Assembly: GCF_003668995.1 (NCBI RefSeq)
Contig: NZ_CP033068.1
Coordinates: 1,116,001-1,180,000 of the forward strand
Reading direction: 5' to 3'
Length of the DNA stretch: 64,000 bases
From: Flavobacterium sp. 140616W15
Lineage (GTDB): Bacteria; Bacteroidota; Bacteroidia; Flavobacteriales; Flavobacteriaceae
Part shown: piece by piece, positions 18,064 through 37,828 of the stretch
Position numbering within the stretch: position 1 is the first letter of the stretch
Layout of the letters: the number at the start of each line of letters is the position of its first letter
The notes under the pieces: model-generated
The model's database searches: none
Told to the model about the DNA's origin: nothing
Seen by the model: only the letters and a program-made list of their open reading frames with translations
Made by a program: the position numbers and the translations under genes

Positions 18064-18075
18064 AAAATTAATATC

Positions 18076-20058
18076 ATGGGAATGCAGACAGGAGAAAATG
18101 AACAGGCACTGAGAAAGATATTGGATATGACAAGGCTCATAGGGATTATCATTCTGGTAATTCACTTTTACTATTATTGTTATTCAGCCTTCAAGCAGTG
18201 GCAGCTGGTAAGTGAGTTTACCGATAAAATTTTAGGCGGTATTTATCGTGCGGGGCTATTTGATAATTTTCATAAATCGAAATTTTTTGCCCTGGGATTT
18301 CTCGTGATTTCGCTTCTTGGTGCAAAGGGTAGAAAAAATGAAAAGATCAGTTACAAAGCTGCTTTTGCTTATTGTATTTCTGGAATGCTCATTTATTTTA
18401 TAAGTTATTTTGCGCTTTTGTTATTTTCATTCCAGACACATAAAGCAATAGTTTATATTGTAATTACTTCGACTGGATTTCTTATGATGCTTTCCGGCGG
18501 GACAATGTTTTCTCGGATTATAAAAAACACGCTGAACAGCAAGGACATTTTCAATAAGCTCAATGAGACTTTTCCACAGGAAGAAAGACTGTTGGAGAAT
18601 GAATATTCTATTAACCTTCCCGCCAGATATTATCTAAAAGATAAACTGCGAAACAGCTGGATAAATATTATAAATCCATTTCGGGCGCTGATGGTTCTGG
18701 GCACTCCGGGATCGGGTAAATCTTATTTTGTGATCCGCCACGTTATTACCCAGCATATAAAAAAAGGCTTCAGTATGTTTGTCTATGATTTTAAATATGA
18801 TGACCTCTCAAAAATTGTCTATAATACATTTGAAAATAATAAACTGGCTTATAAAATCCTGCCCAAATGTTACTTTATAAATTTTGATAATATTATGCAC
18901 AGGTGTAATCCGCTTGATCCTCAGAGCATGGAAGATATAACCGATGCTTCAGAATCAGCCAGGACTATTCTGATGGGGCTTAACAGGGAGTGGATAAAAA
19001 GACAGGGAGACTTTTTTGTAGAGTCTCCAATCAATTTTTTATCGGCCGTAATCTGGTATCTAAGAAAGTATAAAGATGGGGAATTCTGTACACTACCTCA
19101 TGTAATAGAACTTATGCAGATGGATTACGATAGTCTCTTTACGCTGCTTCGGACAGAAAAAGAAATTGAAGTCCTGATAAATCCATTTATTAATGCTTAT
19201 CTCCAGGAAGCCACAGACCAGCTTGAGGGGCAGATTGCTACGGCGAAAATCGCCATGGCCCGGCTTTCCTCCCCGCAGTTATACTATGTCTTATCAGGAA
19301 ATGATTTCACTTTGGATATCAACAATCCCGAGGAACCTAAAATTGTATGCATGGGAAACAACCCGCAGAAAATACAAATATACGGGGCCGTATTATCCCT
19401 CTATGTAAACAGGCTTGTTAAGCTGGTAAATAAAAAAGGAAAAATGAAATCAAGTCTGGTATTTGATGAATTCCCTACTATATATCTCAATAATATGGAC
19501 AGTTTAATTGCTACAGCAAGAAGCAATAAAGTGGCAACCTGTCTGGGCATTCAGGACTTTACCCAGCTCCGCAAGGACTATGGGCGGGAACAGGCAGATG
19601 TTATTATGAATATTGTTGGAAATATAATAAGCGGACAGGTTACAGGAGATACTTCCAAACAATTATCAGAGCGATTCGGAAAAATTATGCAAGACAGGGA
19701 AAGCCTTTCGATCAACAGCGCCGACACTTCAATCAGCCGTTCAAAACAATTGGAATCTGCAGTCCCGCCCTCGAAAATCTCAGGGCTTAGTTCAGGGGAA
19801 TTTGTGGGCATGGTGGCTGATGATCCGGATTGTAAAATTGAACTCAAAACCTTTCATAACGAAATTATAAATGACCATGAAGCGCTGAGAAAAGAGATGG
19901 GAAATTATAAGGAAATACCCCCTGTCCGAAAACTTGATAATGCAATGATTCAGCGCAATTACCTTCAGATAAAACAGGATGTTCAGGATATAATTCATTC
20001 CGAAATGGAACGCCTGCTGAATGATCCCGCGCTGGCGTATTTGGTGTTAAAAAAGTAA
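18076..20058 (+). CDS. VirD4/TraG-like coupling protein, 660 aa
   Basis: Three to four membrane segments lie in the first 170 residues (HFYYYCYSAF near residue 35 matches the N-terminal YWFCY-type domain of Bacteroidetes coupling proteins). Walker A is GTPGSGKSY (about residues 209-217); Walker B-like SSLVFDEFPTIYL follows near 455-467, then a late GIQDFTQLRKDYG motif. It links the relaxase-DNA complex to a type IV secretion channel. No tra genes for the channel itself are present, so the element is mobilizable rather than self-transmissible, unless those genes lie outside the window. Confidence 0.9.
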   Translation: MGMQTGENEQALRKILDMTRLIGIIILVIHFYYYCYSAFKQWQLVSEFTDKILGGIYRAGLFDNFHKSKFFALGFLVISLLGAKGRKNEKISYKAAFAYCISGMLIYFISYFALLLFSFQTHKAIVYIVITSTGFLMMLSGGTMFSRIIKNTLNSKDIFNKLNETFPQEERLLENEYSINLPARYYLKDKLRNSWINIINPFRALMVLGTPGSGKSYFVIRHVITQHIKKGFSMFVYDFKYDDLSKIVYNTFENNKLAYKILPKCYFINFDNIMHRCNPLDPQSMEDITDASESARTILMGLNREWIKRQGDFFVESPINFLSAVIWYLRKYKDGEFCTLPHVIELMQMDYDSLFTLLRTEKEIEVLINPFINAYLQEATDQLEGQIATAKIAMARLSSPQLYYVLSGNDFTLDINNPEEPKIVCMGNNPQKIQIYGAVLSLYVNRLVKLVNKKGKMKSSLVFDEFPTIYLNNMDSLIATARSNKVATCLGIQDFTQLRKDYGREQADVIMNIVGNIISGQVTGDTSKQLSERFGKIMQDRESLSINSADTSISRSKQLESAVPPSKISGLSSGEFVGMVADDPDCKIELKTFHNEIINDHEALRKEMGNYKEIPPVRKLDNAMIQRNYLQIKQDVQDIIHSEMERLLNDPALAYLVLKK

Positions 20059-20412: not shown

Positions 20413-22144
20413 TTGAATAAAAAAATATTAAAAAAATAGAGAATAAATTATCAGTAGTAGATTTCTTCTGTGGAGGTGGAGGTTTTTCAGAGGGATTCAG
20501 GCAGATGGGATTTAATATTCTGTATGGTTATGATCACTGGAGACCTGCTACGGAAACATTTAATCACAATTTTGGCTTGGAGTGCGAGGTTAAAAATATT
20601 CTGGATTTTAAAGAGTCGACAAATGAAATTGATAATATACCAGATACAGATATTATTATAGGCAGTCCGCCATGTGTTAGCTTTTCAAGTTCCAATAAAT
20701 CTGGTAAAGGTGATAAATCACTAGGACTTGAGTTAACAGAAGTTTTTCTGAAAATTGTTGCTGTAAAAAAGCACCAGCCAAATTCTATATTGAAAGGCTG
20801 GTTTATGGAAAATGTGGTAAACTCTAAAAGGTATCTGCAGCCATCCTATACATTTAAAGATTTAGGTCTTACACAGTGGGCAAAAGAAAATAGAATTGGC
20901 CCTAATAAAATAGCAATTGATTTATTGGAAAACAGCACAATAATTAATTCGGCAGACTATGGATCAATACAATCGCGGAAAAGGGTTATTTCAGGTGAAA
21001 TTATAAAAAGAAAAAATTAATAATTCCCCCTGTCAGCCATCAAAAGAAACATTCAAATTTTAATCTGCCTCTTTATAATTCTATAAGGGTAATGAAAGAA
21101 AATTTTCCATCCCCCTTCAGTAAAAAAAGAGATGGAATTATTAAAGATGTACAGTATTCTATCGAAGTAAAACAAGATGAAATCACGGATCATTTCTATG
21201 ACACAGGAATTTATGAAGTAGAATGGAAACCTTCCCGATATTTTAAAACGAACCATCCTTTTATGGGAAAGATGTCGTTTCCTGAAAATGAATATAATCC
21301 CAGCAGGACTATAACAGCTACAAAAATAGCCAACTCCCGTGAATCAATTATTTATAAATCTGAGTTTGAAAGAGTGGGAGACGGTGAATATAGACTTCCT
21401 ACGGTCAGAGAAGCATCTATAATCATGGGCTTTCCCCTGACATATCAATTTCTGGGTTCGGAAGGCGCAAAATGGAGGTTAGTTGGAAATGCAGTATGCT
21501 GTTCGGTAAGTAGGGCATTTGCAAAAATTGTATTAGATGAAGTAGGGATTAAGCATAATGGTAAACTTAATATTGCTGAGCGTCCAAATTTGAAAGGGGT
21601 AAATAATTTAAATAATTATATGCTTAAATCATTTAATAATCCTCCCATTAAAAAGGATAACTGCAGATTTAGAAGGCATCCGATTAAAGATGGTAACTTA
21701 ACGGTGACTCTTTCTAATTATGATATTGGTAAAAAATCCAAACCGACAGGCACATGGTTAACATCAATACAATATGGAACAGGAGAAGGATTCCCAATCC
21801 AAAATATTGATGATGGTTATTATAGGGAATTGGAATCTTTAATTGTAAATTTTAAGAGTGGTAAAAAATTCATTGAAATCATAAATAATGGTTTTTCTGA
21901 AAAAATTGGCAGTGCAGCTCAGCTTCAGAAAATGTTTGAAATTCAAAAGTCGCAGGATAGTTTTCTAGAACCAACTGAACTGGTTGAAGAGGTTAGAAGG
22001 ATAATTAATAAAGTAGAAATCGAAGAAACTAACATTACGCAAGGCGAAAATATTATTTTTCAAAATAAAAATATTGTACCATTAAAACAATTATTAGCCT
22101 TATATGCAATAAATAAGATTTCAACAACCGCTAACTCATACTAA
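20413..22144 (+). pseudogene. C5-cytosine DNA methyltransferase (DrmMII-like), broken by A-run frameshifts
   Basis: All landmarks of a C5 methyltransferase are present, split over two frames: motif I DFFCGGGGFSEGF, motif IV GSPPCVSFSS with the catalytic Cys, motif VI MENV and motif VIII QSRKRVI in frame one (to 21020); then motif X-type LVGNAVCCSVSRAFAKI in frame two (from about 21020 on). One extra A in the A runs at 21005-21016 joins the frames, giving KRKKLIIPPVSHQKK without a gap. Motif I itself has no ATG, GTG or TTG upstream in frame; one extra A in the A7 run at 20430-20436 would connect it to a TTG at 20413. So two one-base deletions, sequencing errors or phase-variable slips are likely. 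It would protect host DNA from the defence operon it heads. Confidence 0.85.
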
Positions 22145-22148
22145 AAAC

Positions 22149-23816
22149 ATGCCTATTCACTTTATTGATAACTATGCCAAGCAGAATTTGGAAAGTATAA
22201 TAATAAATCAGGAAGGAAAAACTCTTTTTGGTGAATTATGGATATATAAGCAGTTTCTAGCATTTCATGAGGATAGTTTTTTAACTGATGAAGTGTGGTA
22301 TTTAAAGCACAATTATAATCTGTCATCGCATCCTTCCAGTAAAAGAAAGGTTGAAGGTCAGATTGATTTTATTGTGCTTTCCAAATATGGATTATTGATT
22401 ATTGAAGTTAAGGGCGGGGGACTAAGAGTTGATGAGAATGATTGTTATTTTTCATATAATAAAGATGGAGAGTATGAAAGTCAGAACCCTTTTACACAAG
22501 TTAAAGAGTATTTACACACCTTAAAAAATTATATAGACTCCTCTGTTTTTGTTTACAGGGCTGTAGTACTTCCTCATGAAACAGGTTTCGTTTTATCAGG
22601 GCCACAGTTATCAGGATATAAGGATTCTTTCTTTTCTAAGGCTGATGTAGAAGGATTGGACGAAAGAGGCATTCAAAATGTTTTTTTTAAATTCATACAA
22701 GATTGTGGTAGAAAAGCCAGATTTAAAATGATTAAAGAACTTAATCCATCTTTTAGGGGCGATGAAATTGCTATTAAAGCTTTTGAACGTTATCCATTAT
22801 TAAATTCAAAAGAAATAAAAAGGTTAAAATCCGAGTTATTTCCTGTGCAGACGACTTACGGATATAATCCAGATCGAATAAGTTCAGAGATTATATTTAA
22901 AGAAAATTATGAAATATTGAAGGGACTGCGCAGAAATAGATGTGTAATCGTTCAGGGCGCACCCGGTACTGGAAAAACAGTTTTAGCGGTCAAGTTTCTA
23001 GCTGAGAACTTATTGAAACAGCAGAAAGGTATTTTTTATAGTGCCAATAAACTTATAAAAGCAAAACTTGAACACATAATTCTTTTTGATTATAAATTAA
23101 ATCCTAATAATATTTCATTTAAGGTTTTTTCTCAAAACCTAACTGATGAGACGGTACCAGATGATGTAGACTTTTTAATTTTTGATGAAGCACATGAGTA
23201 TTTCGATAGAGGTCTATATGATTTTATAGAGAAATTAAATGCTAAACTAAAAAAGCCTAAAATTCTTCTTCTTTACGATCCTGACCAGGCGATTGTTTCA
23301 ACTTTTAAAGAGCTTTCGTGGTATACAGATTTCTTTATCGAAATAGGTTACACTCATTTTTATTTCGACGAAAATTATAGATGCGGTCAAAATAAAAATA
23401 TAGCTGAGATTGCTTATTTTCTTCTTGCAGGAGAATACAGAAAAGTAAAAGCCAAATATGAAAATCTCTTAACGACAGTAGAAAGTCTGAAATCCAAAAT
23501 AGAAAAGGTAAAAGAAATTATAAATGAAAATAAGTTTACCGTTTCTGAAAAAATTATATTAGTTGAAAGCCAATTAATAGATGAGTTTGCAGAAATTATA
23601 AGTGATTATTTTAAGGTAGATATTGAGGAGTTAACAGAGTCTAATATAAATGTTCTGTCAGGAAAAATAAAATTTACAACCCCTATAAAATACAGAGGTC
23701 TGGAGAATGAATCAGTATATCTTATAACTAAAGACTTAAATGAAAGCTCAAAAATTCAAAATTATGTTGGAGCAACAAGAGCTATGAACGCACTCAATAT
23801 TGTTTTATGGAAATAA
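22149..23816 (+). CDS. NERD nuclease-related domain fused to SF1-type helicase (DUF2075-like), 555 aa
   Basis: The N-terminal 120 residues match a NERD domain: GELWIYKQFL, then GQIDFIVLSKYGLLIIEVKGG, the D...ExK arrangement of a restriction-like nuclease fold. A helicase follows: Walker A QGAPGTGKTVLA (about residue 270), Walker B FLIFDEAHEYF, and the C-terminal UvrD-like YRGLENESVYLI and YVGATRAMNALNIV. It starts 4 bases after the methyltransferase stop and overlaps the next gene by 10 bases. It is not part of canonical DISARM and may replace its usual nuclease (DrmC) or helicase (DrmD); that is inference. Confidence 0.85.
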   Translation: MPIHFIDNYAKQNLESIIINQEGKTLFGELWIYKQFLAFHEDSFLTDEVWYLKHNYNLSSHPSSKRKVEGQIDFIVLSKYGLLIIEVKGGGLRVDENDCYFSYNKDGEYESQNPFTQVKEYLHTLKNYIDSSVFVYRAVVLPHETGFVLSGPQLSGYKDSFFSKADVEGLDERGIQNVFFKFIQDCGRKARFKMIKELNPSFRGDEIAIKAFERYPLLNSKEIKRLKSELFPVQTTYGYNPDRISSEIIFKENYEILKGLRRNRCVIVQGAPGTGKTVLAVKFLAENLLKQQKGIFYSANKLIKAKLEHIILFDYKLNPNNISFKVFSQNLTDETVPDDVDFLIFDEAHEYFDRGLYDFIEKLNAKLKKPKILLLYDPDQAIVSTFKELSWYTDFFIEIGYTHFYFDENYRCGQNKNIAEIAYFLLAGEYRKVKAKYENLLTTVESLKSKIEKVKEIINENKFTVSEKIILVESQLIDEFAEIISDYFKVDIEELTESNINVLSGKIKFTTPIKYRGLENESVYLITKDLNESSKIQNYVGATRAMNALNIVLWK

Positions 23817-26161
23817 CATTTGAAAATATACATGAAACAGTTCTCTTAACACTAGATCTTCAGGAGAAAAATTTGAGTTATTTACCAGTATTAGGCAAAT
23901 GGTATTTTGATTTTTTAGAATCATCAGAAGAAAAACTTTCACTTCATGTACCCGATTATGATCAAGAATCAATCAATCTAGTTTATAATTACATCAGACT
24001 GCTGTCTTTGACTTACAGATTATTTCAAAAATCAGAATTGACAAGCTTTAAGGATACCTGCCTTTTCAATGTTTTTGATTTTAATAGAAAGAGAAATAAT
24101 TTTAACGACTTTGAACCGGTATTTGATTTTGAAACCCAAAAGGGAGAGTATCTAATATGGTCAAAAAAAATTATAACTTCAAAAAACCGATTCGTACCTG
24201 TATTTTTGAAAAAACAGATAGAAAATTTAAATTGGATTAATACCTATACTGCATTTAGGTTATTTCAGATTATTGAAAACAGAGGTTTAATAAAATATCC
24301 TATTCTAATAGATGTTGAAAAAGATTTATGTCTTTCATTAACTACGGGAGAAGATTTTAGGCCTGAGGGATTTATTTTATTTGAGACTGCTAATTGGGAT
24401 TCAAAAAAGATGACAGTGATAGACGCCATAGAATATGAGGAATATTTGTACAGTATGGATTTATCGCATCAAATCACGATGAAATACCCATACCATAAAA
24501 ATATACACACTCATTTTTGTAATATTGGAAAGAAGAGTTTGGAATTAATTTTTAATTCTAGATTTTATTATCAGAATATAGCAGCGGATGATATAATTTT
24601 ATTACCGGAAGAGTTGTATCAGAAAACTTTAACGAGTTATGACCTCTCTTCCAAATTTATGATTTTTGACACAAATCACAGTTTAGAATTATATAACTTG
24701 CTAAGTGATTTTAAGTCGGCTTGGAATGGATATGAATTCAATAGATTTACCACACCTTTCCCCAAATATTGGTTTATGTTTATTAATCAAAGCATACCAA
24801 AAAATGAATGGTTTGAAATGTTTAAAGGTGATTATCCCGAGCTGGAAGAAAAAGCAATTATCCGCCAAATTAAAACAATTATAGATTTATTATATGATCT
24901 TGATTGGAGCAGAAAACTTGTAAATGAATTTAAAAAACCTGTTTTTTTGCTTCCGGAAATTAAAGGAATAGGAAAGAAGCGACTGGAAAAGGCGTTACAT
25001 TCATTTAAGAATTATTTGTCTGTAAATAATCCAGATGCAATTTTTATTGGAAATGATAACAACATCGATGTTAAAATAAATAAAACAGTTCTATTGTTAG
25101 ATGGATTCAATATCATAAATACAGCTAATATACTTCAGCATCACGAAAATCTAAAAATCCTAATCCCGGATTTTCTGTTTTTTGGATATCAGCCTTGGAT
25201 AAATTATCATTTATTAAATTACCAATATGATTCGCTCTTAAGTCCCAAAAGGGCATCACTTGACGATAATTTTAGTTTAAATAGGAATGTATTTGTAGAA
25301 GAGAAGAAGAAAATAATTGAAAATATAAAAACTGAGGTTATAAAATATAAAAAGAAGTATAAACTAGAAGAGACTGATATTGAAAAGGAAGAAATGTCAG
25401 TTTACAGCCAAGACATTGTTTTTACTAATGAAGAGGAGTTTGAACCAAATTTCAATGCAAAAGAAAAAATTAATGATAAAGAACTGGTCATAGTTACAAC
25501 AAGAAATCAGGAATATAAATTTAAAGCCAGCAGTCAGGTCCTCCTTCGAATGAATTCAATTATATCATGCAGTGCATCCCAATTGAAAGTGTCCGATGCA
25601 TTTATTCCAGTTGCTGAGATCCGAAATACGATTGATAGAGATTATGTTATCAATAAATTAAGCAGAATTCCTGAGTCAGTAATTAGTTTTCAAGCAGAAT
25701 TGAGTAAGTCTGCCAATGTATACAATATTTTGAAAAATTTTGGACTAGAGTATACCAATGAAAAGTATTTTAATGATAAATATGTGCTAAAAGAGGAGAC
25801 AATCGCTAAAGATAGATTTATACTTCCGAAAAGGAAAAATAATTGGAAAATTATATGTGAGTATCTCGGAATAAATACAAGCGATATGTATCAGGCTTGG
25901 ATTTCCTATTATGGCAGCAAGGATATAAATGAAATTAAAAATATCTATATGTATATTTTAAATTTATGTATGGAAAATGATTCCTTAAAGGAAATAGAAA
26001 ATCCTAAATTTTTAAATATGATAGCCGCGTATCTGGAAACTAAAAAAAGTGTCTTTGAGGATGATGAAGAAACCAACCCCGCGGATTTAGCTAAATCAAT
26101 TATCTCATCTATAGTAAATGAGATTTCATTTCATGAAATCAAAGAAATCAAAACAGTTTAA
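23807..26161 (+). CDS. Large protein of unknown function in DISARM-like operon (possibly DrmE-like), 784 aa
   Basis: I see no catalytic motif. It has no signal peptide or membrane segment. The central part contains FLLPEIKGIGKKRLEKALHSF and LLLDGFNIINTANIL, loosely like a helicase core that lost its Walker motifs. It ends in an acidic tail (FEDDEETNP). DISARM class 2 carries an accessory gene of similar size, drmE, near drmA; the position directly before the DrmA-like gene suggests an equivalent, but I cannot confirm it from motifs. It overlaps the NERD-helicase gene and precedes the DrmA-like gene by 2 bases. Confidence 0.75.
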   Translation: MEITFENIHETVLLTLDLQEKNLSYLPVLGKWYFDFLESSEEKLSLHVPDYDQESINLVYNYIRLLSLTYRLFQKSELTSFKDTCLFNVFDFNRKRNNFNDFEPVFDFETQKGEYLIWSKKIITSKNRFVPVFLKKQIENLNWINTYTAFRLFQIIENRGLIKYPILIDVEKDLCLSLTTGEDFRPEGFILFETANWDSKKMTVIDAIEYEEYLYSMDLSHQITMKYPYHKNIHTHFCNIGKKSLELIFNSRFYYQNIAADDIILLPEELYQKTLTSYDLSSKFMIFDTNHSLELYNLLSDFKSAWNGYEFNRFTTPFPKYWFMFINQSIPKNEWFEMFKGDYPELEEKAIIRQIKTIIDLLYDLDWSRKLVNEFKKPVFLLPEIKGIGKKRLEKALHSFKNYLSVNNPDAIFIGNDNNIDVKINKTVLLLDGFNIINTANILQHHENLKILIPDFLFFGYQPWINYHLLNYQYDSLLSPKRASLDDNFSLNRNVFVEEKKKIIENIKTEVIKYKKKYKLEETDIEKEEMSVYSQDIVFTNEEEFEPNFNAKEKINDKELVIVTTRNQEYKFKASSQVLLRMNSIISCSASQLKVSDAFIPVAEIRNTIDRDYVINKLSRIPESVISFQAELSKSANVYNILKNFGLEYTNEKYFNDKYVLKEETIAKDRFILPKRKNNWKIICEYLGINTSDMYQAWISYYGSKDINEIKNIYMYILNLCMENDSLKEIENPKFLNMIAAYLETKKSVFEDDEETNPADLAKSIISSIVNEISFHEIKEIKTV

Positions 26162-26163
26162 TT

Positions 26164-29100
26164 ATGAGCAATTTTAAAAAGAAAAGGGAAAGTCTTGAAA
26201 TATTTGTTAAAGAGCAGATAATAGGACCAGGTGCTTTTAATAAACGTTATTTCTTTATTGATAAATGGGATAAAAATGAGTTTAGTGGTGTAGACTTTAA
26301 GTCAAGTCCTGTTAATGCAATTGATAATAAGAGCGAAGTACTGACCGAAGTTCCTGCATATCAGTACAGCTCTGCTATTCTATTTCCTGAAACTAGAGTT
26401 CCTAAAGAGACAACTATAGAAAAAGACGAATCAATGCTGGATAACCCGGAGGCAAATGAGCCAGATTTAGAGGATTTTAATGCTGGCGCAGATGATGATA
26501 ATATAAAGGATGATTCTGCAGAAAGTTTAGTAAGCAAACAGCAAAACTATCCTAATTCTTTTGGACTGTCTTTTGTTATAGATGAGAATTTTGACATTCA
26601 AAATGATTTAAAGGTAGGCATTTCTTTTAGGAAATATATAAATATCAGTAAAAATGAATGTTGCAACAGAAAATTATCCTGTTTGGTGACAGAATACGAA
26701 AATGAAATTGAAACTGCGGTTGCTCTGTATTTCAGCCCATTATTTGCTGCTGTTCGTAAAAGCGGCAATCTATTTATTCTTGCTCACCAGGAAATAAGTA
26801 AAAATAATATTTATGACATTGATTACATACATTTAAATAATTATTTGAAGAACGGCCTATTAAAAACCATAAAAAATATTTTTGGTGAAAGTTTAGTGGT
26901 GCTGAATAAAAAAAAGGATGTGACATATTACGGAATAAAGAATGATTATGATTTACAGTTTTATTCTGTAACAGATTTTATTGCTTATTCGGGTAATGAA
27001 TATGAAAATGTAGCTTCCTTGTTTGATAATACCTTAGTTAGTTTTTTAAAAACAGAACTTAAAAGTGATACAGCTAACTATTCCAAATATAAAAAATTGA
27101 TTAATGAATTAGAGATTTACAATCAATTAAGGAGTTATGTGACAGATTTGAAATCAGTTTACAAGCCAAAAAATGCATCGCCTGTCTGGGAATGTACTTC
27201 CTACGATAATATTGATGTTGTGCTTCCTGGTTTTGAAGGAAATTCTAACATATACAGATCCAGGGAGTTGGCGGTTAATAAGGATATTAAAGAAATTACA
27301 GATTTAAAATACTGTGTTCAATATGTCAGAAAGGATGGTGAGATATTTATCAAAATAATTCTTCTGAATAAAGCTATTGTAATTTTAAAAGAAAATGAAC
27401 CTCCTCAATTAAACAAAAAAAATGAAGCAAATGCAAAAGCTTTTTTTGGAGTAAAATTAAGGGCAGAAGAAAAAAATGAAAATGTTCTTAAGCAATACAA
27501 TCCTCCTCACTTACTGGATTTTGATGAGGAAGATAACTTTAATAAATTAATATACAGAAATTATCATGATTTTGGTGAAGGATATAATACTTCAGTAAAC
27601 TGGGGAAAAACGGATGACGATTTAAGATACATCTGCACAGAATTTCTGCCGGAACAGGAAACTCCCAATGTTGATTTTAAACCGAGCAGAATCGATCAAA
27701 ATGGTAGTGTTGTATCGCGTCTACAAAACGATGCCATTCTATCGATGCGAAATCTTTCAACATTGTCTGAGACTAAAGATAATGAAATATTGGATGGTTT
27801 GAATGATTTCATTGATGAATATAAAGCCTGGATTGATGAAAAGAAGAATGAACTTAGTCAGGACAATTCTCTTAAAATTGACCAGATTGAATTATTATCA
27901 AAGCAAATGCTTAGCTGTGAAAATGACGTTAAAAGACTAAAGAGAAATATTAGTCTTTTAAAATCCGATTCAAAGGCAATGGCTGCTTTTCGAACTATGA
28001 ATACTGCTTTATTTATGCAGTTGCATCACAGTATTTTAAAAAAGGAAAAAAACATAGATTTAAGTCATCAGATAACGGAAGAGTATTATAAGGATTCTGA
28101 AAAATTTGATGATAATGGTAATAAAATTGAATACAAGTGGCGCTCTTTTCAAATTGCTTTTATTCTCTTGAATGTTGATGCTTTTGTGCAGCCTGATGCT
28201 GCAGATAAAACAGTAGAAAAAGTTTTTTCTGAAGGATGGCCCGAAAGAAATGAAATTGCTGATCTTGTTTGGTTTCCAACAGGAGGTGGAAAGACTGAAG
28301 CTTATTTAGGAATTATAGCCTTTGCAATAGCATACAGAAGGTTTACAAAAGAAAGCAAATCGGGGGGGACAACTGTATTGATGAGATATACCTTGCGTTT
28401 ATTAACACTTCAGCAGTTTCAAAGAGCAACTATGCTTATTTGTGCGCTTGAAGTAATAAGGAAAGACAATTTTAATATTCCCCATTCCTGCAGTCTCGGG
28501 GATGAAAGAATAACCATAGGATTATTTGTTGGATCTGGTTCTTTACCAAATCAATGGAAGGGAGTCGGAAATAGTAATGATTCCAGTATGATTCAGGAGC
28601 TTGCGAAAATTTCATCAGCTTTAGAAAGCGGAAATATTATTTCGACGAGCCTGCCTTTTACCGACTGCCCATGGTGTGGAACTAGTTTATTCTTCAATAA
28701 AGAATTAAGTAATGTCTCCCACAAGGCAGGAGGAGAGAACTATGGAATGAATGATCAGCTAAGCATATGCTGTAATAACTCTTCCTGTACTTATAAAGGT
28801 TATGGTAGAAATAGACCTACAAATGATTACAGTCTGCCTTTTAGATTATTTGATGAAGATATTTATAAATTTCCGCCAACATTATTATTTGGTACAGTAG
28901 ATAAATTTGCAGCTTTAGCAAACAAAGTATCTAGCAATCATTCGGAAAGAAACAATGACTCCAGACGTTTGTTTGGCGGACACAGCAATGCTGCTTTGCC
29001 ACCTGAGTTAATAATTCAAGATGAGTTACATTTATTGCTTGGTCCACTTGGTTCTGCTGTTGGCTTATTTGAAAAAAGTATTGATTATTTATGCACATAT

Positions 29101-30471
29101 CAGCACAATGGATTGAAAGTTAAGCCTAAAATAGTTACATCTACTGCAACTACTAGAAATACAGACAAGCAAATATTTGCATTATTTAACAGGAGGTCAG
29201 AAATATTCCCTAAACAGGGTATACTGGCCGATGATTCTTTTTTTGCGTATTATGAAAGAGACAAAATTAAAGTTGACCATTATGTTGCAAACAGAAAATA
29301 TGTAGGTATTCTTCCTGTTGGTAAAACTCAGGTTTGGATGCAGTTAAGAATTGCATCTATCTGTTTGACGCACAGGTTGAAATATATTAAAGAGTGTTAT
29401 ACAAATGATATTATATTTGAAAACCCTTCAGCACTAAATGAATATAGAGATGTATTTGATTTTTATCATACAGTTCTGTCTTATTTTAATAGTCTTAAGG
29501 ATGTTGGGAAAACGCAATCGCAGCTAAATCATTATTTGCCTGGAGATATTAATTTTATAACTAAAAATACAATACCATGGAGCATTATAGACAAACTTTT
29601 ACGAAGTGAGACTACAGTTGATTATTCTGAATTGACTGGACGATTAAGCGGAGAACAAGTTAAGTCAAATTTATCAAATATTGAAAAAAAATGGACTTTG
29701 ATCTCGAATGATGTTGATAAGCACATACTTAATTCTAATACTCCGCCTGCATATGTGATATCTACTAATATGATTTCTGTTGGAATTGACGTTTCTAGAT
29801 TCAATACTATGATTATTAGTTCTATGCCGAGAAATATTGCAGAATACATTCAGGCGTCAAGCCGTGTAGCAAGAAGTAAAGAAGGTATTGTATTTACAGT
29901 GCATCATCCTTTTAGATCAAGGGATATTTCCCATTATCAAAGATTTAAAGAGTTTCATGAAAAATTTTATAGTTATGTCGAACCTATATCGGTAACACCT
30001 TTCGCAAGTAAGGCCTTGGAAAGGTATCTTGCCATGTTTGTTTCTGTAATTGTACGCCACACTAATCAACTAGAGCTTACAAATAATGCTGACGCAGGAG
30101 CAATTGATGAAAAGAAAACTCAACAAATAAAGAAAATTATAGGCGACGAAATTAATGAAATAGCTAATAATGCATCTAAATTGGATTCGTATCTACAGAC
30201 AAGAAAAGCAGGAGTTAAATCAAGTGTAGACGGGATTATTTCTGATGAAGAATTGATGGATTTAAATAACAAGCTTAGTAAATTGTTAGATTATTGGATT
30301 GATAGATTGCAATTTATTGATTCTCTTTCTGGTCTGGAGTATAGAGCAAAGACTAAATTAAATTCACTGTTTATTTCTTCCAGTGATAATGATTTTCCAT
30401 CTCACTGGAAAGTTGGGTATTCGTTGAGAGAAATTGATTCTTCAGTAGTAATAAAAACCGTTCAGCAGTAA
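26164..30471 (+). CDS. DrmA-like helicase of a DISARM-type system, 1435 aa
   Basis: An SF2 helicase core sits in the C-terminal half: Walker A WFPTGGGKTEAYL (about residues 702-714), a DELH box in IIQDELHLLLGPLGSA (about 950), VTSTATTRN (motif III-like), and the motif V-VI stretch NMISVGIDVSRFN and YIQASSRVARSKEG. Cys pairs in TDCPWCG and CCNNSSC may bind zinc. The N-terminal 650 residues are unassigned, with an acidic segment near residue 90-125. The layout and its tight coupling to a DUF1998 gene match DrmA, the DISARM helicase. It is far from simple restriction helicases in length. Confidence 0.85.
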   Translation: MSNFKKKRESLEIFVKEQIIGPGAFNKRYFFIDKWDKNEFSGVDFKSSPVNAIDNKSEVLTEVPAYQYSSAILFPETRVPKETTIEKDESMLDNPEANEPDLEDFNAGADDDNIKDDSAESLVSKQQNYPNSFGLSFVIDENFDIQNDLKVGISFRKYINISKNECCNRKLSCLVTEYENEIETAVALYFSPLFAAVRKSGNLFILAHQEISKNNIYDIDYIHLNNYLKNGLLKTIKNIFGESLVVLNKKKDVTYYGIKNDYDLQFYSVTDFIAYSGNEYENVASLFDNTLVSFLKTELKSDTANYSKYKKLINELEIYNQLRSYVTDLKSVYKPKNASPVWECTSYDNIDVVLPGFEGNSNIYRSRELAVNKDIKEITDLKYCVQYVRKDGEIFIKIILLNKAIVILKENEPPQLNKKNEANAKAFFGVKLRAEEKNENVLKQYNPPHLLDFDEEDNFNKLIYRNYHDFGEGYNTSVNWGKTDDDLRYICTEFLPEQETPNVDFKPSRIDQNGSVVSRLQNDAILSMRNLSTLSETKDNEILDGLNDFIDEYKAWIDEKKNELSQDNSLKIDQIELLSKQMLSCENDVKRLKRNISLLKSDSKAMAAFRTMNTALFMQLHHSILKKEKNIDLSHQITEEYYKDSEKFDDNGNKIEYKWRSFQIAFILLNVDAFVQPDAADKTVEKVFSEGWPERNEIADLVWFPTGGGKTEAYLGIIAFAIAYRRFTKESKSGGTTVLMRYTLRLLTLQQFQRATMLICALEVIRKDNFNIPHSCSLGDERITIGLFVGSGSLPNQWKGVGNSNDSSMIQELAKISSALESGNIISTSLPFTDCPWCGTSLFFNKELSNVSHKAGGENYGMNDQLSICCNNSSCTYKGYGRNRPTNDYSLPFRLFDEDIYKFPPTLLFGTVDKFAALANKVSSNHSERNNDSRRLFGGHSNAALPPELIIQDELHLLLGPLGSAVGLFEKSIDYLCTYQHNGLKVKPKIVTSTATTRNTDKQIFALFNRRSEIFPKQGILADDSFFAYYERDKIKVDHYVANRKYVGILPVGKTQVWMQLRIASICLTHRLKYIKECYTNDIIFENPSALNEYRDVFDFYHTVLSYFNSLKDVGKTQSQLNHYLPGDINFITKNTIPWSIIDKLLRSETTVDYSELTGRLSGEQVKSNLSNIEKKWTLISNDVDKHILNSNTPPAYVISTNMISVGIDVSRFNTMIISSMPRNIAEYIQASSRVARSKEGIVFTVHHPFRSRDISHYQRFKEFHEKFYSYVEPISVTPFASKALERYLAMFVSVIVRHTNQLELTNNADAGAIDEKKTQQIKKIIGDEINEIANNASKLDSYLQTRKAGVKSSVDGIISDEELMDLNNKLSKLLDYWIDRLQFIDSLSGLEYRAKTKLNSLFISSSDNDFPSHWKVGYSLREIDSSVVIKTVQQ

Positions 30472-30475
30472 TATT

Positions 30476-32566
30476 ATGGCAGTAAAACAATATTTCGAAA
30501 ATAATCAGGCAAATGAGTCGATAGGAAAATTTAAACTTTTATCTGCTTATGGAGGCCCGGGCTCAATAGTGCATACTCAATATGGAAGCATCATTATTTC
30601 TTGTATCGAAGAGTGGGGCTTTCTCAAAAGAATACTAGACATACAGAAAGATGCGGTAGAAATCGGAAAAAAAGACAAGGAGATTAAAGGATATGTGGAA
30701 GAACAGGCCAAATTGGCAAGTAATGGAAATATTGGACTCTCTAATGACACCCGACTTTTAAATTCATTGAAAGACCAAAAACAAATATCTCAACTTAAAT
30801 ATTTGGTACTAATTCCTAATATTGAATTAAGTGATTTTTCAAATAAAATTAAGTCAGATGGTCAGGAATTAGCTATAAACAGCACATTTATGCCTAAAGT
30901 TTTTTTTGATAGAGGTAAGCATTACAAAACTTATAAAGAGTGGTATAAGGAGTGGACATTAAAAAATAAAGGGACTGACAAATATGGTAAGGAATTTTTT
31001 CCTCCTAAGTATATTTCGGGTAATGAGATAATTGATCTCACTCAGGACAATATAGTGCTAATATGTGATCATGGTCATATAAGTGATTTTCCTTGGTCCA
31101 AATATTTACGATGGAGGACTGAGTCCCCTATGGAGATTAATTCCGAAAAACCAATTGATTTGTTTAATTCTCAATCCTGTTGCGGCAGTGATGATGCAAC
31201 TAATGCTGAAATTAAGATAACATCTAGCACTGCTAATGCATCTGGTTTTGATGGGAAATGGCTTAAATGTGAAAATTGCGGCAGACAGACGTCACTAAAA
31301 GGATTGATGAGTGTCAAAATTAAATGTCCCGGTCATAAACCATGGGAAGCTGAAACTTCACATGACGGAAACTTAAAATATTATTCAGGAAGTCCGCTTT
31401 CTAGAAATCAAATGCCTCCTTCTGAAAAATGCATGTCAAGCAAGCCAATGAAAGTTGCATTAACTACTGGAAACAATCTCTATTATTCAAACATGCTTAC
31501 TAGTATTTATATGCCTGATGAATTGTTTCTAAATGAGGTTATACTAAGGAAAAAGAAACTTGAAAAAGAAAAAGAGTTGGCTAAGGATGAAGATAGAATT
31601 GATGATCTAATTCAAATTGTCAGTGAAATAAAATTAATTGAAAATGAATTAGTAAATCAGCCTAACGAAGAAATCCCAGATTTAGAAAAGCCTATTTTAT
31701 ACCGCTTCGAAGAATTTAAAGCATTAGCAGGGAAAAATGAAGAAGAGATTAATGTCGATAAAGAAAATGAGCATTTAAAAGTTAAAGATGTTACAGAGAA
31801 CATTAAAGGTTCTCCGCTTGATAAATATTTTTCAAGAATTCTTAGAATTGATAATATGAAAATAACTTCTGCTCAACTTGATTTTTCCCGAGTAGTTCCG
31901 GTTGATTCTGATTCTGGCAGTGTAGTTACTAAAAATATCTTCAGCAGTAAAAATTTGGAAAAAGTGGAAGCCTATCCAGTTGTTGAAAATTATGGCGAAG
32001 GCATCTTCTTTTCTTTCAAAGATGAACAGTTGGAATTATTTTCTAATGTAGTTTCATCATCCATAATAGAAAAGCTCATAAAATTGGATAAAAACAGTGA
32101 TACCTTTTCTGAAAAAGCCATAAAATATGGAATACAAAATAATTGGCAGCTGTATTTAGTTCATTCATTTTCTCATCTTATCATGAGGGAATTAGAATTT
32201 AGATGCGGTTATCCGACAGCATCCCTGCAAGAAAGGATTTACGTTTCGAATAATCCAAAATATAAAATGTATGGATGTATGATTTATACTGCTGAGGGTG
32301 CTGAAGGCAGCATGGGGGGAGTAATTGCTCAAACCAGAACAAATAACTTATTAAATCTAATTACAAGTGCCTTGAAAAGAGCTACTGTGTGTAATAGCGA
32401 TCCTCTTTGTTGGGAATCAGACGGTCAGGGATTATTTGACTTAAATTTTGCTTCTTGCTTTTCTTGCAGTCTTGTTAGTGAGACATCTTGCGAACACAGA
32501 AATATTTATCTAGACAGGAGAATTTTGGTGGATGAAAATAATGGTTTTTTTAAAGATATATTATAA
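30476..32566 (+). CDS. DrmB-like protein with DUF1998 zinc domain, 696 aa
   Basis: The N-terminus SIGKFKLLSAYGGPGSIVHTQYGS is the typical opening of DrmB. Cys/His clusters near residue 235-285 (CCGS, CENCGRQ, KCPGH) look zinc-binding. The DUF1998 domain is at the C-terminus: LVHSFSHLIMREL, YGCMIYTAEGAEGSMGGV, then CNSDPLCWE, SCFSCSLVSETSCEHRN. DrmA and DrmB form the DNA-binding core of DISARM. It starts 4 bases after the DrmA-like stop and its own stop overlaps the next start (TAATG). Confidence 0.87.
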   Translation: MAVKQYFENNQANESIGKFKLLSAYGGPGSIVHTQYGSIIISCIEEWGFLKRILDIQKDAVEIGKKDKEIKGYVEEQAKLASNGNIGLSNDTRLLNSLKDQKQISQLKYLVLIPNIELSDFSNKIKSDGQELAINSTFMPKVFFDRGKHYKTYKEWYKEWTLKNKGTDKYGKEFFPPKYISGNEIIDLTQDNIVLICDHGHISDFPWSKYLRWRTESPMEINSEKPIDLFNSQSCCGSDDATNAEIKITSSTANASGFDGKWLKCENCGRQTSLKGLMSVKIKCPGHKPWEAETSHDGNLKYYSGSPLSRNQMPPSEKCMSSKPMKVALTTGNNLYYSNMLTSIYMPDELFLNEVILRKKKLEKEKELAKDEDRIDDLIQIVSEIKLIENELVNQPNEEIPDLEKPILYRFEEFKALAGKNEEEINVDKENEHLKVKDVTENIKGSPLDKYFSRILRIDNMKITSAQLDFSRVVPVDSDSGSVVTKNIFSSKNLEKVEAYPVVENYGEGIFFSFKDEQLELFSNVVSSSIIEKLIKLDKNSDTFSEKAIKYGIQNNWQLYLVHSFSHLIMRELEFRCGYPTASLQERIYVSNNPKYKMYGCMIYTAEGAEGSMGGVIAQTRTNNLLNLITSALKRATVCNSDPLCWESDGQGLFDLNFASCFSCSLVSETSCEHRNIYLDRRILVDENNGFFKDIL

Positions 32567-33707
32567 TGGGGTATTTTTCTTCAAATGAAAATTTTATAAA
32601 AATTAAGTTCCATAGTGAGATGAAAACATTGTCACTGGAAGAAAAGATCAAGCATTATAATTATAATTTAAAGTCTGAAACACTGAGAAGAACAAAAGCT
32701 TATTTTGAAAAACTAGATTCCCAGTTTTTGATGATTAGCGATCTTAACCAAGGAATTGGATTAATTACCTCCGAAGATTTTGGATTGGAAACAAAAACAA
32801 AAGCTTATGAAGAAATTATTCAGCTGCTGAGAGATTATGAATACCAATTAATTATCTATTCCATTTATTTTGAAGATTATGGCGATAAAATATTTTTTAA
32901 TTTATCTCATTTATTGCTTGATAGTGGTGCTTCGAATTTTCAAGATGATTATTTAATAAATAGCTTTATTAGCAAATATGCTTCAAATCAAACCTTAATC
33001 CATAAATCTATATTGACAGATAAATTAGGTTTATCAGAGAGAGACTGGGAAGATGAAGATAATCAAAGGAATCCAATAGTGGGAGGATTGATGTCTTGGT
33101 TAGAGAAAAAATTGGTGTCAAAAAATACGGATTCAGAAATCAAATTAGTACTGTTTCATTATTCTAAACTATGGAATCTTAATTATTCAAAACCATATAA
33201 TGAAAATAAGGGAATTCTGCTTTTAAACAGTTTAATAGTAACCTTAAAAAAGTATTGCCTGATTTAAAAGTTGATTTCGATTCTATTTTATTTGAATTAA
33301 ATTTAATTTTTAATTCTTTATTTTCCACTATAACCTTGCCTCCCTATCTTGAGTGTGATGATACTTTAGCTAGTAATTCCAGAACTGCAATATCATCTGG
33401 ATATAAATTAAAGAAGAATGAATTTAATTCTTTACGGAAAGAGTCTGTTACATATCTGAATTTCGAAAAGTTCTCAATTCAGGAGCTTATAAAAACATAT
33501 TTTTTGTCTAATGAAGGTTTGCAGAAAATTATATATGATAAAATAACTAAATCAATAAACGAAGGATATTTTATTACCAGATCTGATATTGAATTTTTTA
33601 CAGAATTGCAAAATGCTGACATATTATTAACAACACATGATACGCAGAAACTCACGGAGTACTTTTATAAAACGAACTATTTATTTGGCAAATTAATTTT
33701 GAAATAG
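32566..33707 (+). pseudogene. Last gene of the DISARM-like operon, split by an A-run frameshift (about 380 aa if repaired)
   Basis: Two adjoining open frames, 32566-33267 and one reaching 33707, become one continuous protein if a single A is added to the A6 run at 33246-33251: the join then reads IVTLKKVLPDLKVDFDSILFELN. I do not recognise the product. In particular there is no HxKxxxxD motif, so it is not the phospholipase D-like DrmC usually found here. It is helical and lacks a signal peptide. As in the methyltransferase gene, a missing A in a short A run could be an assembly error, a real mutation or a phase switch. Confidence 0.7.
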
Positions 33708-33892: not shown

Positions 33893-34675
33893 TTATAAGT
33901 TAAATAATTCTATTGCAATAATACTTTTTAGATTCGACTCGTCAGTTATGTTGAATTTCCTGTCTTCTCGAAAATCTATGTGGGTCTTTTCTAAATTGTA
34001 GCTGAATACCTTGCTATGTATATTCTTGAAGAACAGCTCCAGCGAACTGATATCATTATTTGTTTTGTCAGCGTAATTATAAGACATATATCCCGCAGCA
34101 TCCCGCTGAAAACTTATGCCGCTTTTTCTCAGATGATATGAGGATTTTATGCCCGTAATTGTCTCAGGTAAATTTTGAAAAGTATCATGATCAAATTTCT
34201 GATAGCTACCCGGATGCTTATAATTGTGGAAATAGTCATCCAGTTTGGAAGCGCTTGATGCATTGTATATAAATAAATGTTTCTCGGTTCTGTAATCAAG
34301 AATCTGGGAAACAGAAGCAAAATATTTTATAATTTCATGAAAAGCTGTTTTGCTGTTTACTGTGGTCTTTACTTCTATTACTGCCAACACAGATTTGCTG
34401 GGAACAACAACTATATCATTTACCCTGTATAATGGTGAATACAACTGATTATCGTAGATGATGATATCGATTTGCCTTGAGAGATTGCTTTTTTCATCTA
34501 TTACGAAACCCTGCTCGACTGCAATCCCCTTATGAAGATAAGTGGCAAGAAAGCGCCTTAATATTTCTTCAGTCAGAACTCCTATGGTCGGATTATGTTT
34601 CTTTATAAAAGTTTTTACCTGCAGGATCTCATTGAGCAGTTCTTCGGTTTTCAATCTAAAAAATTCGTTAGTCAT
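33893..34675 (-). CDS. DUF6602-like putative nuclease, 260 aa
   Basis: The centre carries RQIDIIIYDNQLYSPL, then VPSKSVLAVIEVKTTV: the D...ExK pattern of PD-(D/E)xK nucleases with the spacing seen in DUF6602 proteins. An N-terminal helical segment (LKTEELLNEILQVKTFIKKH) and GILTEEILRRFL-like stretch precede it. It is the last of three same-strand genes, all nuclease-like, 36 bp after the HNH gene. It lies tail-to-tail with the DISARM-like operon. A defence role is inferred from the fold and the neighbours. Confidence 0.7.
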   Translation of the reverse strand: MTNEFFRLKTEELLNEILQVKTFIKKHNPTIGVLTEEILRRFLATYLHKGIAVEQGFVIDEKSNLSRQIDIIIYDNQLYSPLYRVNDIVVVPSKSVLAVIEVKTTVNSKTAFHEIIKYFASVSQILDYRTEKHLFIYNASSASKLDDYFHNYKHPGSYQKFDHDTFQNLPETITGIKSSYHLRKSGISFQRDAAGYMSYNYADKTNNDISSLELFFKNIHSKVFSYNLEKTHIDFREDRKFNITDESNLKSIIAIELFNL

Positions 34676-34711
34676 AGGATCAGGTTTATGGATTGCTGAT
34701 AGTATCTGGCG

Positions 34712-35536
34712 CTAATACCATCTTTCATATTTTATTGAAGTAGGTATATTTTGCGCCTGTTTTGTTTTATTGCAGTTTTCGCAGAGGAGCTGAATGTTGG
34801 TAACATCATTAATGCCTCCAATTGCTAGAGGTATGATATGATCAAAATTATTTATGCTTCCTACGCTGATAAGACCTGTTAAATCTTTATGACAGCTTAC
34901 GCACATGCCTCTATCTCTATGGATAACTGCACGCATTACCCATTTTGGTATCGAAACTCTTTTCAGCATGCCGTCTTTTTTAAAGAAAGACAGGTCTTCC
35001 ATTTCAATTTCCTCAATTGTTTTTTCTTGAATTTGATGTGAAATCAATTCATTAAATCGTTGCAGGGTCTTCCTGTTTAGGAAAAGGACGAAAAAAATTT
35101 CATCCGACATCGTTTCCAGCAGCTCTTCATAGGGACCGTAAAAACTTAAATATCTAAAATAGTCCGCAATGTCATCATCAATTATTTCAGCTCTTATCTT
35201 TTTATTTTCTTTCAGCCACTTGTCAAAACTGTCGAATTTGAAATCATAGTGTCCCATTGCAATTTCAACCCAGAGTTTTCTTCTTCCTCTTTTAAATGAT
35301 TCATTTTCGGATTCTGATAAATCATCATAATTTATGCTGTCGATTATGAATATGATAAAAGAATGGAGAGCTGAAATTTTTGGGAATGGACTTAAAAAAC
35401 TTCTATAATTCTCATCGCCGAAAAAATCATTCAGCGGGCGGATATAGGAAAAGGGATCACGCAGTATATTATTAATCATATTGGCGAAATAATAGGTCTC
35501 AATATATTTAATCTCTGAAATTTGCGGTTTTCCCAT
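34712..35536 (-). CDS. HNH endonuclease, 274 aa
   Basis: The C-terminal 65 residues form an HNH domain: CVSCHKDLTGL, NFDHIIPLAIGGINDVTNIQLLCENCNKTKQ, with paired Cys for structural zinc and the DH...N...C...C pattern. The N-terminal 200 residues are helical and unassigned and may give target or partner recognition. It is the middle gene of the three-gene minus-strand cluster. Whether it cuts phage, plasmid or its own DNA cannot be told from the sequence. Confidence 0.85.
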   Translation of the reverse strand: MGKPQISEIKYIETYYFANMINNILRDPFSYIRPLNDFFGDENYRSFLSPFPKISALHSFIIFIIDSINYDDLSESENESFKRGRRKLWVEIAMGHYDFKFDSFDKWLKENKKIRAEIIDDDIADYFRYLSFYGPYEELLETMSDEIFFVLFLNRKTLQRFNELISHQIQEKTIEEIEMEDLSFFKKDGMLKRVSIPKWVMRAVIHRDRGMCVSCHKDLTGLISVGSINNFDHIIPLAIGGINDVTNIQLLCENCNKTKQAQNIPTSIKYERWY

Positions 35537-35775
35537 ATTGCTTTATTGATTTTAGGTTTTAAGTCTGGTGATTTTTCTACTGCTAATATAGAAGTATTAT
35601 CATTGTCCTCAGCCCACTTTTACATTATTAAAATGCTGATGACATTCTCTGTTTAATTCTCAGTTATCAATATTTTTTTTTCAATAGTTTCAATTTTTGC
35701 TGTTTTATAGCATAGGCTGTAAATTAAGGAATTTTTCAATGATCCATCGCTTGCCTTACCCTCAGAATCATGAAA

Positions 35776-36582
35776 TCAATGTTCCGAGACAGAAGATGAA
35801 ATTATACTTTTTTCCAGTTGCTTTAATTTCTGGATTTCAATAATCACGCCGTAGGCATAAAATGTGCTGTAGGCCTCTTCGCCGTAATCAAAGCCGTCTG
35901 TTATATTACGGCTTTCCGCAGCAGAAAGATTTATATCTTCTGTCTGCACTTTAAAGCCGATGCCGGGATTTTTGAATTCAGCAAATTCTACTTCTAATCT
36001 ATCGATGCAGGCGCTTTGCGATTCCATCAGACTTTCCTTTTTCTGTATCTTGTTAAGATTGTTATGGTGCATTATAAAAACAATGAAACCGCTTTTTAGC
36101 GAATTTTCAAAATTTGGGATTTCAGCGGCAAGGAACTGCTGTATCCTCTGGAAATCCTTTTTTAGTTCTCCCATGTCTGGATTTATCGCTTTGGCCTCAA
36201 AGATGTATTCTGAAATGTTCTCCGAGTTGCAGATTCTCGATAAGGCAATATCGACCTTTCCGCTTCGTATTGCATCATAGTTTTGACTGTATTCTTTAGA
36301 CTGGCTGGCAAAGATGGTGGGCGACCAGATATCTTCCCTAAGTTGTTTGTAATTCTCAAAACAGTTTTTGTATAAGGTCTGGGTGTTTTTTTCTGCTTCG
36401 ATTTTATAATTATAACCATCTTTTTCATTCCATTTCAGAAGCGCTTTGCAAAGGTTCACGGTAATGAAATATTCTGTCATTTTGGTGACGTTCTGATCAA
36501 ATGAGAGTTTCAGTACCTGGCACTCTCCATATGATTTTCGAAGGGCGGCGAATGTTGCCGCTTTAAAAGGATTGTCTGTCAT
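35776..36582 (-). CDS. Putative PD-(D/E)xK-type protein, 268 aa
   Basis: SGKVDIALSRICNSENISEYIFEAKAIN (near residues 108-135) shows the D...ExK arrangement expected of a restriction-like nuclease. The following GELKKDFQRIQQFLAAE is helical. No family is recognised. It is the first gene of the minus-strand cluster with the HNH and DUF6602-like genes. A restriction or abortive-defence role is possible but unproven. Confidence 0.6.
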   Translation of the reverse strand: MTDNPFKAATFAALRKSYGECQVLKLSFDQNVTKMTEYFITVNLCKALLKWNEKDGYNYKIEAEKNTQTLYKNCFENYKQLREDIWSPTIFASQSKEYSQNYDAIRSGKVDIALSRICNSENISEYIFEAKAINPDMGELKKDFQRIQQFLAAEIPNFENSLKSGFIVFIMHHNNLNKIQKKESLMESQSACIDRLEVEFAEFKNPGIGFKVQTEDINLSAAESRNITDGFDYGEEAYSTFYAYGVIIEIQKLKQLEKSIISSSVSEH

Positions 36583-37009: not shown

Positions 37010-37399
37010 ATGGAAATTACAGGACGCTTAACCAGAGATGCTGTTGTTGCCAAAACAGCAAAAGACAGACAGGTTGTTAACTTCTGCATTGCAGTTAATG
37101 ACACCTACAAAAACAAAGACAGGAATGAGGTAAAAAAAATAGTCACTTTTATTGACTGCTCGTACTGGCTCAGTGCAGGTATAGCCCAGTGGCTTAAAAA
37201 AGGCACAATGGTGGAACTATTCGGAAGAATCGGTGTGAACGCTTATCTCAGCAGTGAGGGTAAAGCAATAGGCAGTCTCACTTTTCACACCAATAATATT
37301 AAAATACTGATTTTCAAATCAGACACTCAGCCTGTTCAGTCGGGAAATTTTTCTGCCAAGAAAAGTAAAAAAGAAGAACCCGATGATCTGCCTTTTTAA
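37010..37399 (+). CDS. ssb: Single-stranded DNA-binding protein (plasmid/ICE type), 129 aa
   Basis: A single OB fold: MEITGRLTRDAVV, VVNFCIAVNDTYKNKD, TFIDCSYWLSAGIAQWLKKGTMVELFGRIG. The C-terminus ends in the acidic tip DDLPF, which recruits partner proteins. The spelling of the N-terminus (MEITGRLT) is typical of SSB copies on Bacteroidetes mobile elements. It protects single-stranded DNA during transfer or replication of the element. It opens a plus-strand run of four genes. Confidence 0.9.
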   Translation: MEITGRLTRDAVVAKTAKDRQVVNFCIAVNDTYKNKDRNEVKKIVTFIDCSYWLSAGIAQWLKKGTMVELFGRIGVNAYLSSEGKAIGSLTFHTNNIKILIFKSDTQPVQSGNFSAKKSKKEEPDDLPF

Positions 37400-37438
37400 T
37401 GTTCGGATGATAAATGTATAAGCCTAAAGAAATGAGTT

Positions 37439-37798: not shown

Positions 37799-37828
37799 CA
37801 GTTACTGTTCAATCTTAAATCAACTTTT

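Follow-up and report, generated by a model that had tools for sequence, protein, structure and literature searches.

Which enzyme cuts DNA in a DISARM-type operon that has no DrmC? The question is raised by an operon of Flavobacterium sp. 140616W15, whose genome is one contig of 4.94 Mb. We analysed a stretch of 64,000 nt of it (hereafter the window), in which the operon runs on the + strand from about 20442 to 33707 and encodes, in this order, a C5 cytosine methyltransferase, a NERD-SF1 helicase, a protein of 784 aa that we call X784, DrmA, DrmB and a protein that we call Y.

A DISARM-type core pair on a probable conjugative element

The original prediction saw a DrmA-like helicase and a DrmB-like DUF1998 protein at the heart of this operon, and PADLOC, NCBIfam and the solved Serratia pair all agree. 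DrmA (26164..30471, + strand; 1435 aa), an SF2 helicase, matches PADLOC DrmA at E 1e-185 and NCBIfam DrmAS with 733.7 bits, which is below the cut-off of 950; its residues 453-1325 match chain 7s9v_A of the Serratia DrmAB structure in the PDB (E 1e-119), and it carries the Walker A motif PTGGGKT (aa 705-711) and QDELHL (aa 952-957). DrmB (30476..32566, + strand; 696 aa), with an MZB/DUF1998 zinc domain, matches PADLOC DrmB at E 2e-58, NCBIfam DrmB_fam with 273.5 bits (above the cut-off of 240) and, over residues 449-686, chain 7s9v_B (E 4e-38). Judged by homology, the two are a genuine DISARM-type pair with a divergent DrmA. When profiles of DrmA, DrmB, DrmE, DrmC and NERD were searched, as had been proposed, those of DrmA, DrmB and NERD gave significant matches, and neither core protein fell outside the DrmA/DrmB clades. 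The tight spacing that had been noted is likewise confirmed: from 21092 onward neighbouring ORFs overlap or sit 2-4 bases apart.

NikA/MobC, relaxase and TraG-type (YWFCY) genes occupy the upstream flank (16394-20058), and SSB, PcfK and PcfJ genes the downstream flank (37010-39534). With conjugation-type genes on both sides, it is probable that a conjugative element carries the operon as cargo. This setting lends some colour to the idea that the operon mainly guards its element against competing plasmids or other elements and not against phages, and class 1 DISARM has an anti-conjugation effect. Anti-phage systems commonly sit on mobile elements too, however, and the evidence in the window does not separate an anti-phage from an anti-plasmid role; we consider a mainly anti-plasmid role improbable.

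The same region holds a small defence cluster between the operon and the SSB/PcfK/PcfJ genes. It adjoins the operon on the - strand (33893-36582) and consists of genes for a DUF6602/NucC-like PD-DExK protein (PADLOC, 7e-29), an HNH protein with a Pfam match at 1e-9, and a Tin-like protein (PADLOC, 7e-21). An ORF of 1348 aa lies downstream of the conjugation genes, at 40995-45041.

Two broken genes

A methyltransferase had been predicted ahead of the core pair; a C5 methyltransferase is indeed present (20442..22144, + strand), but not as one intact gene. Its relatives are encoded by a single ORF of 565-592 aa, and tblastn with these intact relatives places the window gene in two frames, 20442-21014 and 21005-22138, the pieces matching Pfam DNA_methylase at 1e-14 and 6e-8. 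The first piece carries what we take to be motifs I, IV, VI and VIII, and the second what we take to be motifs IX and X; a search for ATG, GTG and TTG in frame before motif I found none. The enzyme scores higher with PADLOC MTase_II (6e-16) than with DrmMII (2e-7).

Gene Y (32566..33707, + strand) also spans two frames, with ORFs at 32566-33267 (233 aa) and 33255-33707, and its relatives have a single ORF of 343-383 aa. Tblastn with intact relatives covers 32566-33252 in one frame and 33237-33686 in another, and the two pieces share 61-68% identity with the intact relatives P0094 and P0096. The last protein of the operon had been taken for an unknown one: its family is indeed without a known match, but what looked like two ORFs at the end of the operon are fragments of a single gene. 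The intact Y proteins of two relatives (L002 and L009) have no PADLOC match either, and a model of the L002 protein (pLDDT 85.5) is all-helical, with no PDB fold standing out among those compared. We regard Y as a putative accessory protein, predicted to be all-helical and matching no known family.

The frame breaks fall in A-rich stretches and may be assembly errors or real losses, so that the window copy may be partly inactive. That this copy is in decay and has lost its defence function, irrespective of the family's role in other genomes, is a serious possibility, which we put somewhat short of even: the methyltransferase has a frame break and no usable start, and Y is split. Yet the NERD-helicase, X784, DrmA and DrmB are all full-length, the breaks may be artefacts of assembly, and the methyltransferase may itself be dispensable, because it is not found upstream in two of nine relatives.

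Recurrence of the gene order

These relatives come from a genome scan with the X784 family, which yielded nine loci. In all nine, the NERD-helicase, X784, DrmA and DrmB genes are followed by an ORF of 343-383 aa, in this order, and recurrence in other genomes, by which the original prediction was to be judged, thus extends to five genes in every locus. The fifth was detected as Y by BLAST in eight loci and by its position in L006. The methyltransferase lies directly upstream in seven loci, the exceptions being L006, where another ORF takes its upstream place, and L008, where the opposite strand carries a methyltransferase-like ORF further downstream. Because the same order recurs in nine of nine loci, it is not due to chance. 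The X784 family is rare: within the taxonomic family of the window's genome it was found in 1 of 397 genomes, and within the genus in 5 of 299, that genome included.

X784, a probable divergent DrmE

X784 (23807..26161, + strand) had been described as a large unknown protein. This stands in so far as no curated profile matches it, but a remote likeness to DrmE was found. Searches with PADLOC, NCBIfam DrmE_fam and Pfam DrmE_C gave no match to DrmE. At E 1e-3, at least 78 proteins of the collection searched belong to the X784 family, and no relatives were found in viral contigs or in plasmids. Compared end to end with a DrmE-like family, X784 scored 40.9, and 60 shuffles reached at most 26.9; the likeness runs through intermediate sequences. 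Direct comparison with the DrmE family of L050 gave no signal (P 0.21 and 0.32), and the results with L069 and L070 (P 0.15 each) and with L045/L046 (P 0.006) were negative or weak. The C-terminal parts scored 23.5 against DrmE (P 0.014; ten shuffles 13.0-18.1, reversed profile 17.3), and DrmE against the intermediates gave P 8e-4, a value without a shuffle control, and P 0.12 against L069 alone. X784 is probably a very divergent DrmE.

Its predicted fold is SF2-like, with two RecA domains and without Walker A, and DE-x-[HDQ] strings occur in 3 of 31 X784 and 4 of 22 DrmE sequences. X784 is probably a catalytically dead SF2-like scaffold in the place of DrmE, and the analysis suggests that DrmE itself may be an SF2-like fold without ATPase motifs. 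X784 also contains an intein-like beta module at about aa 557-600 (about 25475-25606), which Pfam Intein_splicing matches in 4 of 31 family members.

The NERD-helicase and its relatives

The predicted nuclease-helicase fusion (22149..23816, + strand; 555 aa) is borne out by Pfam, where both the NERD domain (1e-12) and the SF1-helicase domain (SLFN-g3_helicase, 6e-13) are significant; its best PADLOC match is RTasNERD-Hel (2e-15). All 13 aligned NERD proteins agree at E29, D73, E86 and K88, the catalytic E, D and E-x-K of the NERD domain, and the helicase part of the window protein has a Walker A motif (aa 270-277) and FDEAHE (aa 345-350).

NERD-helicases at E 1e-15 or better are present in 16 of 298 Flavobacterium genomes. 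Five are of the X784 type (52-100% identical), and the other 11, about 30% identical, lie away from DrmA: the 12.5-20 kb regions inspected around them contain neither DrmA nor DrmB. A plasmid search at E 1e-8 found no close relatives of the window protein. Five standalone NERD-helicases (L107, L109, L110, L111 and L112) stand beside repeated ORFs of about 910-925, 410-425, 510 and 381 aa, all four without a PADLOC match in L107, and this repeated set is possibly an undescribed cluster.

DrmC and NERD among 53 DrmA loci

The operon had been said to contain no phospholipase D gene, and motif scan and profile searches concur: HxKxxxxD is absent from its ORFs, broken pieces included, neither PADLOC nor NCBIfam finds DrmC in it, and Y is predicted to be all-helical. 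We then compared 53 DrmA loci, namely the window, the nine found via X784, 18 from a phylum search and 25 plasmid records. The phylum search with the DrmAS model matched 44 of 395 genomes at E 1e-3, many of them weakly, and of the 19 further genomes in which DrmA matched strongly all but one, G752, were taken in; the plasmid loci were hand-picked from tblastn lists of 85 and 62. A NERD model built from 13 proteins and a DrmC model built from two were applied over a 9 kb range on the DrmA strand. NERD was present in 27 loci (one doubtful), DrmC in 7, both in none and neither in 19 (Fisher p 0.004, relatedness not corrected). The reduced set of 42 loci omits the ten X784-family loci and L061, whose DrmA is identical to that of L060, and counts as absent the weak NERD hit of L087, to an annotated pentapeptide repeat protein; here NERD was present in 15, DrmC in 7, both in none and neither in 20 (p 0.03, relatedness again not corrected).

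Some loci needed a decision. L056, with helicase and DUF1998 in one frame, which may not be DISARM, and the partial L059 were kept among the 53. L047 was counted without NERD because its contig ends; another contig of its genome carries, at its end, a NERD-helicase gene that contains a stop. L082 was counted without DrmC; a protein annotated as phospholipase D family precedes its DrmA and matches neither the DrmC model nor PADLOC. HxKxxxxD was also found in four ORFs of L002, L004, L005 and L010, in each case outside the operon. The ORF of L010, which encodes 271 aa on the same strand some 2 kb ahead of the methyltransferase, matches neither the DrmC model nor PADLOC.

NERD with DrmAB and without DrmC spans Bacteroidota, Pseudomonadota, Actinomycetota and Deinococcota, the NERD-bearing loci including those of Rhizobium, Azospirillum and Shinella (Pseudomonadota), of Rhodococcus (Actinomycetota), of Deinococcus and of many members of the Bacteroidota. 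The NERD gene comes immediately after DrmB, at the position of DrmC in class 1, in Azospirillum and the two Rhizobium plasmids; its place in L050 is between the genes for DrmE and DrmA. No locus of the 53 combines NERD with DrmMI or DrmD, which mark class 1. Among the neighbours of the DrmA loci, we observed a gene for a short prokaryotic Argonaute (L053, 14434-16506, - strand; PADLOC 1e-248) that immediately precedes those for a DrmE-like protein, DrmA and DrmB, and genes for a C5 methyltransferase, a hypothetical protein and DUF2357 (McrC-like) beside NERD-DrmAB in a Rhizobium and a Deinococcus plasmid (L065, 1401-6262; L072, 1-3971).

In L067 (7652-9028) and L081 (12961-14046), a helicase directly after DrmB matches the helicase part of PADLOC 'NERD+UvrD', with no NERD domain recognisable in either protein. 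Because of these two helicases and of the 19 loci with neither NERD nor DrmC, the helicase may matter more than the nuclease, and L067 and L081 speak against a general need for the nuclease. The same loci favour a different role for the NERD-helicase, as a mere accessory, for example in DNA-end processing or repair, with DrmAB loading blocking replication with or without host nucleases. The standalone NERD-helicases of the genus point the same way, and, in the accessible part of PMC9142583, DrmC is reported to be dispensable, with a proposal that other nucleases are brought in. An accessory role nevertheless seems unlikely to us, since the NERD-helicase gene is inside the operon in nine of nine relatives, overlapping X784, and the NERD catalytic residues are kept in 13 of 13 proteins.

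History of NERD in DrmAB operons

A DrmA tree was made by a quick search from 51 of the 53 loci (L059 and L061 dropped), many rows having unusual composition. One starred clade unites the window with L002-L010 and L047, and L045 and L046 join it on a long starred branch; the seven DrmC loci form another starred clade with four class 1 loci without DrmC. The exclusion between NERD and DrmC is thus also an exclusion between lineages, DrmC being confined to one DrmA clade. The NERD label requires eight changes on this tree. Among 21 DrmAB-linked NERD proteins, six multi-row groups of the DrmA tree each form one branch, and DrmA and NERD distances correlate with r 0.93 over 16 loci and r 0.88 over 11 (both p 1e-4).

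That NERD entered DISARM only once, in an ancient event, was considered and abandoned: the first NERD tree fitted the DrmA clades, but once standalone proteins were added the window clade grouped with those. In this second tree, with 6 of the 11 standalone Flavobacterium NERD-helicases, the standalones, the window clade and L045/L046 lie on one side of a starred branch and the other DrmAB-linked NERD proteins on the opposite side. The simplest reading suggests at least two recruitments of NERD, followed by shared descent.

A proposed mechanism

The content and order of the operon, its intact NERD and helicase motifs and its lack of DrmC are what we observe; from sequence we infer a defence function, a nuclease role and the formation of a complex. 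Our preferred reading, which we hold to be more likely than not, is a DrmC-less DISARM-type defence operon on a conjugative element, whose NERD-SF1 helicase most likely cuts DNA exposed by DrmAB. By homology with the Serratia complex, DrmA and DrmB would act together as a helicase complex that loads onto DNA and engages foreign molecules lacking modification. Where its gene is intact, the C5 methyltransferase would mark and protect self DNA, and X784 would serve as a scaffold in the place of DrmE. The NERD-SF1 helicase would then move along the DNA exposed by DrmAB and cut it, most likely supplying the nuclease step. In the available text of PMC9142583, class 1 DrmAB is held back by a trigger loop, and its preferred substrate is DNA that is unmodified and has a 5' overhang; class 1 DrmC does not co-purify with the complex and is often missing, and the degradation of DNA in DISARM is called a mystery, for which borrowed PLD nucleases are suggested.

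A NERD-helicase that is encoded in the operon and never occurs with DrmC in 53 loci is a direct candidate for the enzyme with which DISARM cuts phage DNA. One might speculate further that NERD nuclease-helicases are the missing nuclease of DISARM outside class 1, recruited at least twice in place of DrmC, and working with DrmE as a dead SF2-like scaffold. The two recruited forms would be an SLFN-g3-like one in the Bacteroidota lineage of the window and a UvrD_C_2-like one in the others. This combined proposal is tentative, and we doubt it more than we trust it.

Comparison with known systems

A literature search that was thin on subscription papers, the original DISARM paper included, gave no description that we recognised of NERD within DISARM. 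The only paper found with NERD and DISARM in a defence setting, PMC12458937, links NERD, in its accessible part, with TALON. According to the same partial source, TALON shares with the window a YprA-family helicase with a NERD nuclease, but its helicase is ARMADA-like and accompanied by TBP and TPR-CSD genes; the ORFs scanned in the window gave no match to either of these, and DrmA and DrmB are split there as in DISARM. More generally, that text has the OB-CON-DUF1998 region of ARMADA, Druantia, Dpd, BRIGADE and TALON normally fused to the YprA-like helicase, whereas DrmA and DrmB are separate genes in the window. RTasNERD-Hel of DRT (PADLOC PDLC03813) is the best match of the NERD-helicase, whose partners here are DrmA and DrmB; no reverse transcriptase was matched by Pfam in the 19 ORFs scanned from 13976 to 39534, shorter ORFs lying outside the scan.

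The NERD-DrmAB plasmid loci of Rhizobium, Azospirillum, Shinella, Rhodococcus and Deinococcus (L064, L065, L073, L083, L085 and L072) share with the window DrmA, DrmB, an adjacent NERD gene and the absence of DrmC, but their NERD proteins belong to another branch and no X784 relative is present there. With DISARM type I (DrmA, DrmB, DrmC, DrmD and DrmMI), the window shares a DrmA/DrmB pair homologous to the Serratia complex 7s9v. It differs in lacking DrmC, DrmD and DrmMI and in having its DrmA in a distant clade; no operon protein matched DrmD or DrmMI in PADLOC, nor did models of the L063 DrmD and the L049 DrmMI find any near the window DrmA. With DISARM type II (in PADLOC, DrmA, DrmB, DrmC, DrmE and DrmMII), it has in common the separate DrmA and DrmB, a C5 methyltransferase, broken here, and, in the gene ahead of DrmA, what is probably a remote DrmE. 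In contrast to type II, the operon is without DrmC, its probable DrmE goes unrecognised by curated profiles, and it adds a NERD-SF1 helicase and the predicted helical Y. The DISARM core itself, a DrmA helicase and a separate DUF1998 DrmB in adjacent genes, is present. As the PADLOC definitions, so far as given in the available text of PMC9252829, require DrmC in both types, the window lineage is DISARM by its DrmA/DrmB core and lies outside both published types by its gene content.
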